Positions 2,126 through 44,733 of a stretch of 64,000 bases of DNA are shown in pieces. Location of the stretch: assembly GCA_030062745.1 (NCBI GenBank), contig CP099843.1:16968997-17032996 (forward strand), read 5' to 3'. Both the position numbers and the translations under genes were made by a program. Positions within the stretch are counted from its first letter, which is position 1, and each line of letters opens with the position of its first letter. The notes beneath the pieces were generated by a model, which was not told the origin of the DNA, ran no database searches, and worked only from the letters and a program-made list of their open reading frames with translations. The stretch is from Capitulum mitella (Eukaryota > Arthropoda > Thecostraca > Pollicipedomorpha > Pollicipedidae).

Positions 2126-5100
2126 AATCGACGAAGGAAGTCTTTAATTGAAAAAGAGGAAAGCTAATCATTCACAAAGCATTGTCCTCACATTACGCTG
2201 GCAGCTTAATGCAAATATCACCCACGCCCATCGCATTTGTCGTCACAGTTTTCCATTAGTATTCCCGGGGCCGGAGTGTCATCTCACCGAGGCGTCCTCT
2301 CTATCATGCTAATGAGGACAGGAACGGAAATCCCATCCATTCTCAATGAGATTCACACTAACGCTGTCAAACGAGATGAAAGCATCGCACACACTGCCCG
2401 GATAGTCGTCCGCTTCCTGGTCGCCGGCTTTGTTGCGACAGCCGGGCAGACCACGCTCCAGTGATGACATTCAGTCCTCAGGTTTCACAGATATGAATAT
2501 GAACCTCATTCCAATATATGCCGCGTGTCCAGGTCAACGTGAAGCGTATACAGGTACAATTTGGCATGCATTAGAGAGGCGTTAGGAGTGCCAGTTCAGT
2601 ATGATACATATTGTTGCCGGTAGGTACTAGCACTAGCATGGGTTTTCGCTGACTGAAGGGACTTTTTCAATTTTGGTGTCATTTTTTGCTCACTGAGGGA
2701 AACTGATCTGAACCTCCTGGGAGCTTGTACCGACAGCCATCTCTCGCCACCGACTCAAGTCCCTGTGTCTGCATCAGGCCGGTGCACTGGCATGCAGACT
2801 AGCGGAACGTTGCATGGTGGGGAAATACAGCCTCGCATTCATCTGTGGTGGCGCCAGCCTACCCAGCACAAGTAAGCTATTGGTAGTGGGATCGAACTGA
2901 TGGGACATGCTGCTCGGCTGACCAGGATGTGGTCACTTCCACAGGGATGATAGGGTGATTGTGTAACCCGTAGGAAAAGTATGTCTTTGTTTGCGAGTAA
3001 TTCCGGTCGGTTAATAGTGCCTCCATAAAAAGTCTCAAAACCGAAAGCTAAACGGATGCCACGTTTGTACTGCACGCAGAAGGCAACGCGAAATGACTAA
3101 ATATAAAACAAAACTATTAGCAACATGTCAAAGAATATCTTTAACACCAAATGAATCATCTTGACCAGGAAAGTCACTTAATGTTCTTTTGCTGGCGCGA
3201 TGGCTCCTCCAATGTCCAAATGTGACTTTGGCCCCCAATATTTTCCGTTAGTTTAAACAGGGGAAATGCAGTATGTCATTTCATAAACGAAAACCTCCAA
3301 AAATATCAAAAAATTGCCGTCGGTCAAAGTGAAATTTGCTAAACCCATTGATAATTTTACATTTGTGGGGAGGTTAGGCTGTCGGGCTCTCGGCTCGACC
3401 CTCCCCCAATCACTTACACAAAATAACGCCACTTATCTTGACTGGGAAGAAGACAAATGAAACATTCATCGAAATTTTCAACAGTCGTCTTGCTTGACAC
3501 CTAACAAAAGCTACTCACCTGTAACAGAACGTCAATCATGTAAGACGAGCTGACGACATCTTAACATGACGAGTCAGCAACATCTCAACAACTGAGAGTG
3601 ATGAAATGGGTATCAGCCCCTGAATTGATCCATTAGGATGAAAGAGATGGCGGGCTGTTCGATGGACCTTGGCCATCATGTACCCACCAAACAATATAAA
3701 CAATATGCTCCATTTGTCTTGGAATGGGAAGAAGCTGCATTTGCTATTCAACTTTGCAACGAAACATTACCAAACACTACACACAATGAATCTTTAATTG
3801 TAAAAGAGTGCCATCAGCGCACAGCTTTACATTTATTTCAAAACATGGAATCTGCGCTCTAAATACAGTATTGCAAAGTATTATATCCACCAAAAATAAG
3901 GAGCATAGAAGTGAAACAGCTACTGACTTCTTTGGACATATGGAGAAATAAATGTGAAGAAACCAGTAAAACATTTTCCACTTGTCCGAACAGAATTCCA
4001 AAACGACTTGCATACACTGGTCATTTTCATAACGACTTCACGTGTAATGGTGCGTTGATTATTATGGAAGCGCCTGCTTGTTCAACACTGCCATTTCGGC
4101 ACATCTGGCTGACACTTGGTGCGATGTTTCACGATCTAGTGCTGCCCGTCTGTATAGGAGTTTCCTTCATGGCGAGGTATTGATTATCTGGTCAGTAACT
4201 GTTCGTTGAGCAAACACTCCCGTTCTGGCCCAGGCAGGTGGTGTGGATGGCTGTGTGTCGTGACAGCTAAATGCTTAATCGATAGTAAACGAATGTTGCC
4301 GGCATTGGATGGGCCGGTGCCACCTGGGGAAGACCCAGGGAAACGGACATCTGGTTCACCCTTTGCTGTGGTAAACAGCAGCTGAAACGTTGCGGCGGTC
4401 CAAAGGACTGGTTAATGGGATCGCACTAATGAGAACGACGCTTGCATAAATTTGATCAGTTCTTGATCATGTGTAGTTGGTATTTGTTTGCCTCTGTGGG
4501 ACAAAAAACAGTGTTGGGGTCCGCTGTTGCTGTTTTATCGCTGCTGAGGTACGACATTCAAATACTTAGTTTCATTTCGTCATATGTCTTCAAAACAGCA
4601 TCAAATTTTTATCGATGGCTTTGCTATAGGGCCTTTTTATCGATCGGTGACTTGCACAAATTGCCCCGAATTATTCTTTACGCGCCTTGATGCTATTTAG
4701 ACGTTGAAAGTTAATAATGAAATGAAAGTAAACCACTGAAACACCGTACATGCCAAACCACCAGCTTCGACCGTTTACCCTTAAGTGGTCTCCTGGAGGT
4801 GCCACTAACGTTTTGTGCCACTGTTGCATCTATGAAAAGTTAGCTCACATCATTGCCTTTAGTTACGTTCTTGTTTCGTCGAAATCGTTCCAGCAGATGG
4901 CAGACCTAGGGAGCAGGGAGAATCGGTACCAGCGTGGATTTACATACATTCCACCGCACGAAAACAAGGTTAAATAAAATTTTCCACCTAATTCGCTATT
5001 TCTGCCATACGTCATAAATTTGGGTAGGATGACACATTTCCGTCAGCGGAAATTTACGACAACGGCATTCATTGCGTCTTTAAAATTTAATTAAACATTT

Positions 5101-41169: not shown

Positions 41170-41177
41170 ATGTACAT
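41170..41177. other. Left 8-bp target duplication (ATGTACAT)
   Basis: ATGTACAT directly precedes the left terminus of the 41178-44725 transposon and recurs exactly after the right terminus at 44726-44733. The word is itself palindromic, which lowers but does not remove its weight as a target duplication. Confidence 0.8.
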
Positions 41178-41313
41178 CAGGGTGGATCGAAAATATATTT
41201 TTTGTCGCGAAACAACTTCTTAGGGGTCAAAACGCGTGCGCGTGGATCCGAAAACACGGAAAATAAGGAGTAAGAAGATATTAAAAATATTCTAGAAAGG
41301 GCGCACGAAGCAT
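41178..41313. repeat. Left terminal inverted repeat
   Basis: Pairs with 44601-44725. Matching is strongest over the outermost 16 bases and the 32-bp block at 41213-41244. The inner parts are diverged, and this side has about 10 extra bases (41193-41212 region). Confidence 0.88.
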
Positions 41314-41834
41314 CTTTGAAGTGAGTTTCGCCGTTCCCGACCATTAAAGTCGCCATTGGTTTAGCATTACGCATAGCAAGATAGCACTTCGGTCACCATC
41401 CACCGTAGCTGTGCGTAGCTTTATGGGCCTTTTAGTGTCTGTAGTTCACGGATAGGTGATGAGCATGGATTTGAGCAAATAACAGGAGACTGCCAGGTAA
41501 AATAAAGTGGTAGACAGACAGTAGCCCTTACGAGCTAAGACCGCGCACCAATGAACCTCACGACCTGCAATAGATGCGGACTACAGAGTCCGAGTCGAAT
41601 TCGTGGGCTTCCCACACATATCGTTGCCCACGCTGCTCATCTCTGAGGACGCTCTTGAAAACCTTGATCGGTGCCGGTAAACGATACCTCGCAGCGAAGC
41701 GCTTTGTTGTCATCGGAGAGCGGTCGAGTCAGACAGACACGTCACAAGAGTAGCGCGCTGGTCCCTGGACTGTGACGTGGTGACCAGAGATTTAGTACTC
41801 GGGTGTGTTCCGTCAGCATTCGGATCGCAGGGGG

Positions 41835-41864
41835 TGACATTCTGTGACATTCTGTGACATTCTG
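41835..41864. repeat. Three perfect 10-bp repeats (TGACATTCTG)
   Basis: TGACATTCTG occurs three times head to tail, just upstream of the transposase start at 41877, within the transposon's probable 5' untranslated region. Confidence 0.95.
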
Positions 41865-41876
41865 AACTGGGCTAAA

Positions 41877-44242
41877 ATGAGTAATCCAGGACCATCAACA
41901 AGACAGAGAACGAAACACCCTTTGCTGCAAACAGGCTCGGACGCTCTTCCCATAAACCAGCTACCGTGGAAAAGAGAAGTGTATGCCTTTTACGTGAAGA
42001 CACGGAGTGAAAGGACAACTCCTTCTGGAAAGAAGCGGACAAAACGATTGGTTGGTTGGTTATTGGGGCTTAGGGGCGCACCGACTGCAGGGTCATTCGG
42101 CGCCCATGGACAAAACGAGAAATAGCAAAAGCAGTCAAGGATGCCATAGTAGACATCTGGGACAGAGCCAGTCTTTTTACGTGGATACCAGTGGACGACG
42201 GACAGGCGTCCCAAATGGGTGCTACGTCGGGTAAGACCGAGAGAGAGAGATGTCAAATGTTATTTCGGAGAACAGGATAATTCAGAACGTAGAAAGACTG
42301 GCCATAACTGGGAAGAACCTCATGAAATGGTCTTCGAAACGCCAACGGGGCAAGGGTCGAAAGTTCGTGAGTATGCAGCGAGAGTACGATGGCTTATTTG
42401 GCATCATGTGGTGCCGATGCGATCTTGCTGATGTCCCCTGTGGCACGCGTCCAGCTTCTAAAAGGGTGCAAGCTCAAGAAGTAGCTTTCCTCAAAGACCA
42501 GCGAGGAGAGAAAAAACTCTACATAGGCGGCGTTGACCGGAAGACAACTGAGGAAAATGTCCGAAGGCAGAAGAGAAGGGGAAAAAAATGAAACTAGCGG
42601 AAAAGAGACAGAAAAGGGACAGGCAGCACGATGCTGAGGAAAGGCAGCTGACTGAAGGGGATGCAGATGACGACGATGATAGCAGTGAAAAGTGTCAGAC
42701 GGGTGATACGGAGGCAGCTGATGCAAGCCGCTCTTATTCACCTAGTTCCGATGATGACGAGGACGATGTCGCCGGGCAGAACCGACATCAGCTTCCGAAT
42801 TATTCGCGGATGTGTCATCGGTACGGTATCTCTGATCGCTCCGCGGCTTGCTTGCTGAACGTAGCTTTGGTTGATTATGGGATAATTACAGAGCACAACA
42901 AGGCTGAGCTGACAGACCGCAGCAAAATCCGGCGACAGAGAGACAAATGGAGTAAAGAAGAGGTGGTTGAAAGCTCATTGCAAAACCGACGTGACCGCTT
43001 AGCAGGATTCTATTACGACGGTAGGGAGGACAGGACGCTGCAGAAAGTTGGTAAGAAATTGACGTTCGCCAAAGAACTGCACGAGATAGTGGTTACTGAG
43101 CCCGGCCATCGGTATGTCGATCACGTGTCTCCAAATAGCGGAAGTACTGCAGATATTGCGAAGGAGTTGCTGGACGTGATACGGGACAACGATGCGCATC
43201 CAGTGGTGCTTGGATCAGACGGCATAGCGGTAAATACCGGCCGCAACAGTGGTGTGAACAGGCGAATCGAACTGGGTGTAGGCCGTCCGCTCCAGCAAGC
43301 TATATGCGGCATGCACATCAACGAACTGACGCTGAGACATGTGTTCAAGGATGCTGATGGTGGAACGAGTGGTCCAGCATCCTTCCACGGACCAGTTGGC
43401 AAAGCCTTTCAGAGAGATCTGACCACACCGCCTTTGGCTAAGTTTGACATGACATGTGTAGGGCCGTCCAGGCAGGACCAGAAGGTGTTACCCAGTGCTT
43501 GTTGGCCTTAGAACCAGGGGCCATCCATCAAGCCCGTTGGGTTACACTTGCAATTAAAGTACTCAGACTGTACGTGTCCACAGAGGCTCCAGCACCGGCG
43601 CTTGTACGGCTAGTATATTTTATACTAAACCAGTACGGCCCCGAATGGTTCAGGTACAGACTTCATTCAAGTATCAGCGACAGAGCGAAGAACCTGTTCT
43701 TTCTGATGTCGCTGTCAAGAAAGCTGCCGGAGAGAGACCGTAACATCACGCAAAAGGTGCTTCAGCGCAACGGGTTCTGGGCCCACAGTGAACATGTCCT
43801 GATCGCTATGCTGGCCGACGATCAGCAGGAGGACAGGATGCTGGCGGAAGAGCGCATAAGGAGATGTCGAACCAGAAGATGCCAGGACCAGGATCCAGAT
43901 GACATACGCCAGTTCGTTATCCCTGACATCAGCTTCCATGCCGAGGAGTACCACCACATGATTGACTGGCAAGATACAACGGAACCACCTTTGGTCATGC
44001 AAATGTCAGACGAGACCATCGCGGCTGTTGTGGAAGCGTTAATGGACTTCAGTGACTTTCCCTGCCACTCCCAAGGGGTCGAACGACGGGTGAAAAAAGT
44101 CCCACAAACGGCACAAAAGAAGGCGGGACACAGTGGACGTCATGCACTGATACTGGCAAAAGCCCGGTTCAGGACTGATCTGCCAGTGATGGACACGAGG
44201 AGGGACTTCTATGACTGGCTTCGAGTGACATGTGACCGCTGA
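41877..44242 (+). pseudogene. Transposase-like gene of an unnamed RNase H-like family, broken
   Basis: Pieces: 41877-42070 (…WKREVYAFYVKTRSER), 42077-42215 (REIAKAVKDAIVDIWDRASL), 42250-42591 (EYDGLFGIMWCRCDL, then FLKDQRGEKKLYIGGVDRKT), 42588-43480 and about 43454-44242. The fourth has YGISDRSAACLLNVALVDYG, then TDRSKIRRQRDK, a GHRYVDHVSPNSGSTADIAK stretch, VVLGSDGIAVNTGRNSGVNR, and ICGMHINELTLRHVFKDADG with TSGPASFHGPVGKAF. The fifth has GAIHQARWVTLAIKVLRLYV and ends YDWLRVTCDR. The (S/C)DG-NTG and C-x2-H-x-NEL-x-LRH blocks are hallmarks of a repetitive protein family in many invertebrate genomes that I know only as uncharacterised. C-x2-H-x-L is reminiscent of hAT transposases. Breaks: near 42070, near 42215-42250, at a run of seven A at 42583-42589, and near 43454-43480, where some coding sequence also seems missing. 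An assembly error in the A-run is possible. The transposase role is inferred from its place between terminal repeats. Confidence 0.7.
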
Positions 44243-44349
44243 GGCTGGTTTATTAGTGGCAGCGGAGTTTGTTGTGGAATGTCATTCATCACAAATAAAT
44301 AGCTCTGGTTTAACGTTGTGTCTGGGATGGCGTTTGATGAATGGCGAAG

Positions 44350-44380
<31 letters not shown>

Positions 44381-44402
44381 TGATGATGATGATGATGATG
44401 AA
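44350..44402. repeat. (TAA)n-(TGA)n compound microsatellite
   Basis: About eight TAA units followed by seven to eight TGA units, inside the transposon's 3' region. It gives poly-Asn/Asp, poly-Ile/Met and poly-His/Tyr shadow frames. Confidence 0.95.
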
Positions 44403-44600
44403 GGTGATGACGACGACAATTATGATATGTTTCGATGGTTGTCGACATGACGCGAACAGCGTTTGTTCGGCGCATGCGCCAAACGCCGAAAATTATCACT
44501 CACAGGATTCACATAGACTTCTGAAGGGTTACCTTCTTGTGCAAGATGTTTAAAGCAATGGAGACTTCAACGCCTAGAAGGCGTATTTCTGGTCCCAAAA

Positions 44601-44725
44601 ATTCTTTGTGCGCCCTATCTAAAATATTTCAAATACTTTTTTAGTCCTCATTTTTCTTTTTTCCACATTCACGCGCACGCGTTTTGACCCCTAAGAAGTT
44701 GATTTATTTTTTTCGATCCACCCTA
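44601..44725. repeat. Right terminal inverted repeat
   Basis: Reverse complement of the left terminal repeat, with the 32-bp perfect block at 44670-44701 and terminal TTTTCGATCCACCCTA. Confidence 0.88.
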
Positions 44726-44733
44726 ATGTACAT
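44726..44733. other. Right 8-bp target duplication (ATGTACAT)
   Basis: Exact second copy of the 41170-41177 octamer, immediately outside the right terminus. Confidence 0.8.

Follow-up and report, generated by a model that had tools for sequence, protein, structure and literature searches.

Which mobile element lies between two identical octamers in this stretch of crustacean-lineage DNA, and is the gene that it encloses its own transposase? The locus belongs to 64,000 nucleotides of contig CP099843.1 of Capitulum mitella (assembly GCA_030062745.1), hereafter the window, in which an earlier note made from the sequence alone had proposed a complete terminal inverted repeat (TIR) transposon carrying a gene of an undescribed transposase family. 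By direct reading of the sequence and a listing of its repeats, the element occupies window positions 41178-44725 (3,548 bp), is flanked by the octamers ATGTACAT, and has the inverted repeats and the enclosed gene that had been described, although the gene is broken in this copy. A complete TIR transposon is borne out by both ends and by the duplications across further copies, and the window holds one copy of a recently active cut-and-paste TIR transposon family. We consider it probable that this copy, now broken, was once autonomous and that it stems from a family of cut-and-paste DNA transposons with a DDE-type (Asp-Asp-Glu) transposase of the CxxH group, working most like hAT.

Target-site duplications and target choice

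Since ATGTACAT is its own reverse complement, the window copy alone cannot tell a duplication from the end of a repeat. End searches of the 477-Mb genome (16 contigs), in which the best 40 of 244 candidates were scored per end, yielded a sample of 41 loci, i.e., the window, 39 other left-end matches and one right-end match. Both ends were present in 40 of these; in L015 the right end was absent from the stretch taken, and this locus stands outside the 40 end pairs. Perfect 8-bp duplications were found in 37/40 end pairs, with one mismatch in another (L018) and unmatched flanks in two (L017, L049). The 38 usable end pairs carried 33 distinct octamers, and perfect octamer identity between different elements was seen in 0.6% of comparisons. 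Given that the octamers match within elements and differ between them, the duplications are genuine, 8 bp in length and external to the element. The true 8-bp duplications proposed in the earlier note were thus recovered in the collected copies, and the octamers differed between insertions; octamers that did not differ had been named in the note as an outcome that would speak against it. The alternative that ATGTACAT belongs to the inverted repeat was ruled out by the differing matched octamers of other copies. The non-matching flanks of L017 and L049 may stem from recombination between copies or from boundary change.

Across the 38 insertions the target consensus was nTGTACAn, with T2 in 33/38, G3 in 31/38, C6 in 35/38 and A7 in 37/38, while the positions neighbouring the octamer held at most 0.41 bits. 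The octamer of the window copy fits this target, which explains its palindromic look.

Ends, copy number and age

The element in the window begins with CAGGGTGGAT and ends with ATCCACCCTA. The termini CAGGGTG/TAGGGTG given for it previously are as read in the window, but its first base, C, is an exception: 38/40 paired copies start with TAGGGTG, and CAGGGTG was found only in the window copy and L011. The opposite end reads CACCCTA in 39/40 paired copies and CACTCTA in L011. The outermost block of the inverted repeats is 16 bp long (15/16 matching in the window copy); inward of it, 19 bases at the left end and 8 at the right end have no counterpart. Next comes a perfect inverted block of 32 bp (41213-41244 / 44670-44701), which lies inside 109-nt arms at 82%. 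The inverted homology claimed to extend over about 130 bases around such a block accordingly reappears as an imperfect alignment of about 140 bp.

A 17-base terminal pattern, with at most one mismatch allowed, gave 245 matches in the genome (130 + 115), as compared with three (1 + 2) for the reversed control. One hundred ends were listed, all exact and on C1 to early C8. Among these, 78 formed 39 facing pairs, of which 33 span 3,495-3,550 bp and 37 enclose a protein match, and three of the 22 unpaired ends were without a listed protein place. Two facing pairs of about 2.6 kb with no match in the protein lists (C1:342998-345564 and C8:326203-328794) are candidate non-autonomous derivatives.

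Pairwise divergence of the 40 full elements ranged from 0.2 to 7.2%, with a mean of 3.8%. The closest pairs differ by 0.23-0.5%, which points to recent movement of the family. With a divergence of 3.4% from L014, the element closest to it among these 40, the window copy is probably older.

The gene between the ends

As query for the gene we used P0003, the 788-aa (amino acid) protein of L053 counted from its first M. By tblastn, the gene was found between the ends in 40/40 elements, with a coverage of at least 0.97 in 39 and of 0.64 in L019, and it fills about two thirds of the element. This ties the protein family to a mobile element, as the earlier note had suggested from a single copy. A genome search with P0003 gave at least 76 matches, drawn from the best 73 of 990 candidates. 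Open frames spanning the whole gene were present in L053 (790 codons) and L054 (789 codons); the copy at C1:8501370 (L031), which has a 791-codon frame in the match list versus 494 codons on direct reading, was not counted as intact.

Copies of the protein outside such repeats had been named beforehand as an observation that would speak against a transposon gene. Among 59 close protein places on C1-C7, compiled by hand from two match lists, there are 55 for which an exact match to a terminus lies no more than 3 kb away on the right side. Two of the other four also have ends, i.e., C1:8501370, which shows both ends and a perfect duplication, and C3:30812989, which has a right-end match. No listed end was found near C2:15696195 or C6:1201988.

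We infer that this gene almost certainly encodes the transposase of the element itself. It is very improbable that it is instead a passenger of host or unrelated origin that was picked up by a non-autonomous element and is mobilised by the transposase of another. Such a gene would account for the lack of detected homology to any known transposase among Pfam, NCBIfam and PDB sequences; it sits poorly, however, with a gene that is constant across the 40 elements, takes up most of their length and lacks a protein match in only 2/39 of the pairs listed. Its distant relatives, seven of which align to it at 27-53% identity, are moreover scattered over the genome in the manner of a transposase family.

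Structure of the window copy

The features of the window copy are collected in Table 1. When compared with an intact copy, its gene shows a 71-bp insertion, small indels and a 73-bp deletion. The 61-bp insert, edged by TTGG repeats, resembles a tiny insertion of the short interspersed nuclear element (SINE) kind. Directly upstream of the gene, GTGACATTCT occurs three times (41834-41864).

Table 1. Positions of the features of the element within the window, with the basis of each.
Feature	Position	Strand	Basis
Left target-site duplication ATGTACAT	41170..41177		Sequence; perfect 8-bp duplications in 37/40 end pairs
Right target-site duplication ATGTACAT	44726..44733		Sequence and copy comparison
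Left terminal inverted repeat, imperfect, about 140 bp	41178..41318	+	Repeat listing and alignment of copies
Right terminal inverted repeat	44586..44725	-	Repeat listing and alignment of copies
Transposase-like gene, broken in window copy	41877..44239	+	Readable pieces 42552-43508 (319 aa) and 43448-44239 (264 aa)
61-bp insert with TTGG-repeat edge, between 10-bp direct repeats GACAAAACGA, interrupting gene	42038..42118		Comparison with intact copy
AATAAA, candidate polyadenylation signal downstream of gene	44294..44299	+	Read from sequence

Distant relatives of the gene

Pattern and protein searches of the genome revealed many scattered, mostly broken distant relatives of the gene. Seven of these (L058, L059, L060, L065, L066, L068 and L069) were aligned to P0003 in pieces that are 27-53% identical. 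No inverted repeat of at least 16 bp encloses the gene in L060, in which all seven repeat pairs were checked, or in L058 among the 25 of 41 repeat pairs listed. The long repeats of L059 consist of the gene itself, which occurs there a second time in head-to-head orientation; this relative (816-1876 and 2504-3598) has apparently been doubled into a large imperfect palindrome. The stretches of L065, L066, L068 and L069 are too short for their ends to be judged. On C15 (20262023-20295903), a distant relative is matched five times on the same strand at intervals of about 8.4 kb, like a tandem array.

A looser protein pattern matched 96 places in the genome, which on reading of the list comprise 92 of this family, three distant relatives and one probable chance match. 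A pattern for HANELPLRH, based on invertebrate proteins, had no match in this genome. Beyond it, no relatives were found in viral contigs, phages or plasmids at the sensitivity of those scans. Three pattern matches in other genome contigs look like chance, their translations being without related residues around the motif.

Proposed mechanism and candidate active site

The product of the gene would act as a transposase that binds the repeats of about 140 bp and cuts both ends by means of a DDE-type active site of the CxxH group, to which hAT, MULE (Mutator-like element), P, Dada and Kolobok transposases belong. By analogy with such enzymes, the protein most likely cleaves at both ends of the element and attaches these ends to the target strands at positions 8 bp apart.

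The candidate residues in P0003 are D357 (YYDGRED), D424 (SDG), C453xxH456, R554-W555 and E639 (AHSEHV). We propose D357, D424 and E639 as the putative catalytic triad, with C453xxH456 and R554-W555 as possible hAT-like accessory motifs. D357 and D424 are spaced by 67, and the corresponding spacing in Hermes is 68 (D180, D248). Among the distant relatives that cover the position in question, D357 is kept in 4/5, C453 in 5/6, H456 in 6/7, R554 in 4/5 and E639 in 4/5. The resulting D(67)D-CxxH-RW-E series would fit the hAT/MULE/P group. When hAT proteins of the L062 type were aligned with the family by hhalign, in an alignment that carries no statistical weight, SDGTAVNTG fell opposite FDGASN and ICGIHINEL opposite HCANHSLDL, in this order, with D424 and the CxxH paired with their hAT counterparts.

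Selection on the protein was assessed from the ratio of nonsynonymous to synonymous substitution rates (dN/dS) in nine copies with long open frames, i.e., 36 pairs, L010 being left out for a frame of fewer than 450 codons. The ratio was 0.39-0.78 in 35/36 pairs, which we take as a modest hint that selection once acted on the protein.

Several results weigh against a once autonomous element with a DDE transposase of the CxxH group. The dN/dS values are not low, and one pair, with 11 changes, reached 1.31. An empty site for the window insertion was looked for and none was found. Pfam returned no transposase match for the window pieces, the full 788-aa protein or the cores of eight family members; the weak entries were HTH_36, BUD22, DKCLD, Ribosomal_S17e, Zn_ribbon_10 and DUF3224 (best E 0.017), and those with a printed cut-off fall under it. 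NCBIfam likewise gave no transposase match, nor did PDB sequences by phmmer or with the family profile, which reached seven unrelated chains at E >1. A positive control, a hAT protein of the same genome, found Hermes among the PDB sequences with an E of 5e-21, showing that this search works for ordinary hATs. Comparison by hhalign with four hAT proteins of the same genome, from a shallow family alignment, gave E 0.12-0.45, which is not significant (hAT versus hAT, 0.0022), and a profile-sequence test with shuffles against hAT proteins was also not significant (Z -0.5 to 0.9). In the hhalign alignment with the L062-type proteins, YDGRED lies beside ADGTTD out of register, and the hAT Asp meets D361 rather than D357. 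D424 is kept in only 4/7 relatives and W555 in 3/5; these are all broken copies, so the evidence is unclean either way. Two other acidic residues, E384 (5/5) and E459 (6/6), are kept at least as well as the triad, and for this reason the triad is something that we infer. Finally, fold predictions of the two window pieces, made from single sequences without an alignment to look for the RNase H-like core expected of such a transposase, had a mean pLDDT (predicted local distance difference test score) of 39 and 40 and were unusable.

Two domains typical of hAT proteins, PF05699 (Dimer_Tnp_hAT) and the BED finger, were not reported for the 788-aa protein by Pfam at E up to 10, a listing that is bounded by the fact that HMMER drops most matches above about E 0.1 and that held two unrelated weak entries only. 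There was also no Pfam match to a MULE transposase domain or to a P-element transposase domain in this protein. In the open-access literature no paper was found on the family, which the earlier note had called an uncharacterised invertebrate protein. The description of the family as undescribed was examined within Pfam, NCBIfam, PDB sequences and that literature.

Taken together, the data identify a protein family unmatched by Pfam as part of a mobile element whose ends and target are exactly defined, and annotators could mask this family rather than count its copies as host genes.

Comparison with known superfamilies

The element resembles Hermes/Ac-type hAT elements in its 8-bp duplications, its size and its ends, the hAT end consensus being of the YAGGG kind. 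The order of the candidate residues, D-D-CxxH-RW-E, would be a further likeness. Hermes has a target bias for T2 and A7 (PMC8721813), and the same two positions are favoured in our insertions. By contrast, the repeats of hAT elements, which also make 8-bp duplications, are short, 5-27 or 10-25 bp (PMC3517528; PMC3942097), whereas those of our element are imperfect and extend over about 140 bp, though their outermost block is only 16 bp. The doubt that the earlier note had voiced about hAT on account of the long inverted repeats was, on these figures, right. The protein differs further in that it lacks a PF05699 or BED match and has no significant profile similarity to the four hAT proteins of the same genome.

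These likenesses, together with the D1-D2 spacing of 67 and the presence in the same genome of ordinary hAT relics with PF05699, argue for a divergent lineage inside hAT, in which the BED finger and the C-terminal dimerisation domain would have drifted past recognition and long repeats would be a trait of the lineage. With the missing PF05699 match, the repeat length and the profile tests on the other side, we give this reading a substantial, though less than even, chance.

Repeats of more than 100 bp and duplications of 8-10 bp are found in MULEs, and the CxxH and a tryptophan are common to hAT and MULE transposases (PMC5225508). Our element shares these features with MULE/MuDR elements such as Muta1 of Aedes aegypti, as would a MULE-related lineage with long inverted repeats and 8-bp duplications like those of mosquito MULEs. 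We regard such a lineage as unlikely. Muta1 makes duplications of 8 or 9 bp with no apparent sequence preference (PMC5225508), whereas the perfect duplications here are of 8 bp, none of 9 bp was seen and the target bias is strong, Muta1 being one MULE and not the whole superfamily. The first three bases of MULE ends are mostly conserved G/C (PMC13359780), as opposed to the TAG of our element, and the MULE domain was not matched.

A palindromic target is known from Galileo, a member of the P superfamily with long repeats and 7- or 8-bp duplications (PMC4168063), and on these three points it resembles our element. It is nevertheless quite improbable that our element belongs to a Galileo-like lineage of the P superfamily, marked by long repeats and a palindromic target. 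The duplications of Galileo are mostly 7 bp with the consensus GTANTAC, and its palindrome reaches past the duplication (PMC4168063), whereas our consensus nTGTACAn is 8 bp long and the bias lies inside it; the P-element domain was not matched either. Dada belongs to the C/DxxH group (PMC3706591), in which our protein would also be placed by its candidate CxxH. Dada makes duplications of 6-7 bp, targets small RNA genes and, in the families shown there, lacks terminal inverted repeats, whereas our element has such repeats and 8-bp duplications.

Tentatively, the protein may define a superfamily of its own within the CxxH group of DDE transposases, one that is sister to hAT and MULE, chooses its targets much as hAT does and has long repeats in the manner of MULEs; we see this as a possibility of rather limited probability. 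If it were true, the "uncharacterised" invertebrate proteins of this kind would be the transposases of that superfamily. It would then form a further connection between the transposases of hAT and MULE, and would show whether the length of the repeats and the bias for a target are inherited together with the catalytic core. Because the short repeats and the domains expected of a hAT were not found, we do not file the element as a hAT but say that it works like one: it combines hAT-like ends and target bias with a MULE-like repeat length.

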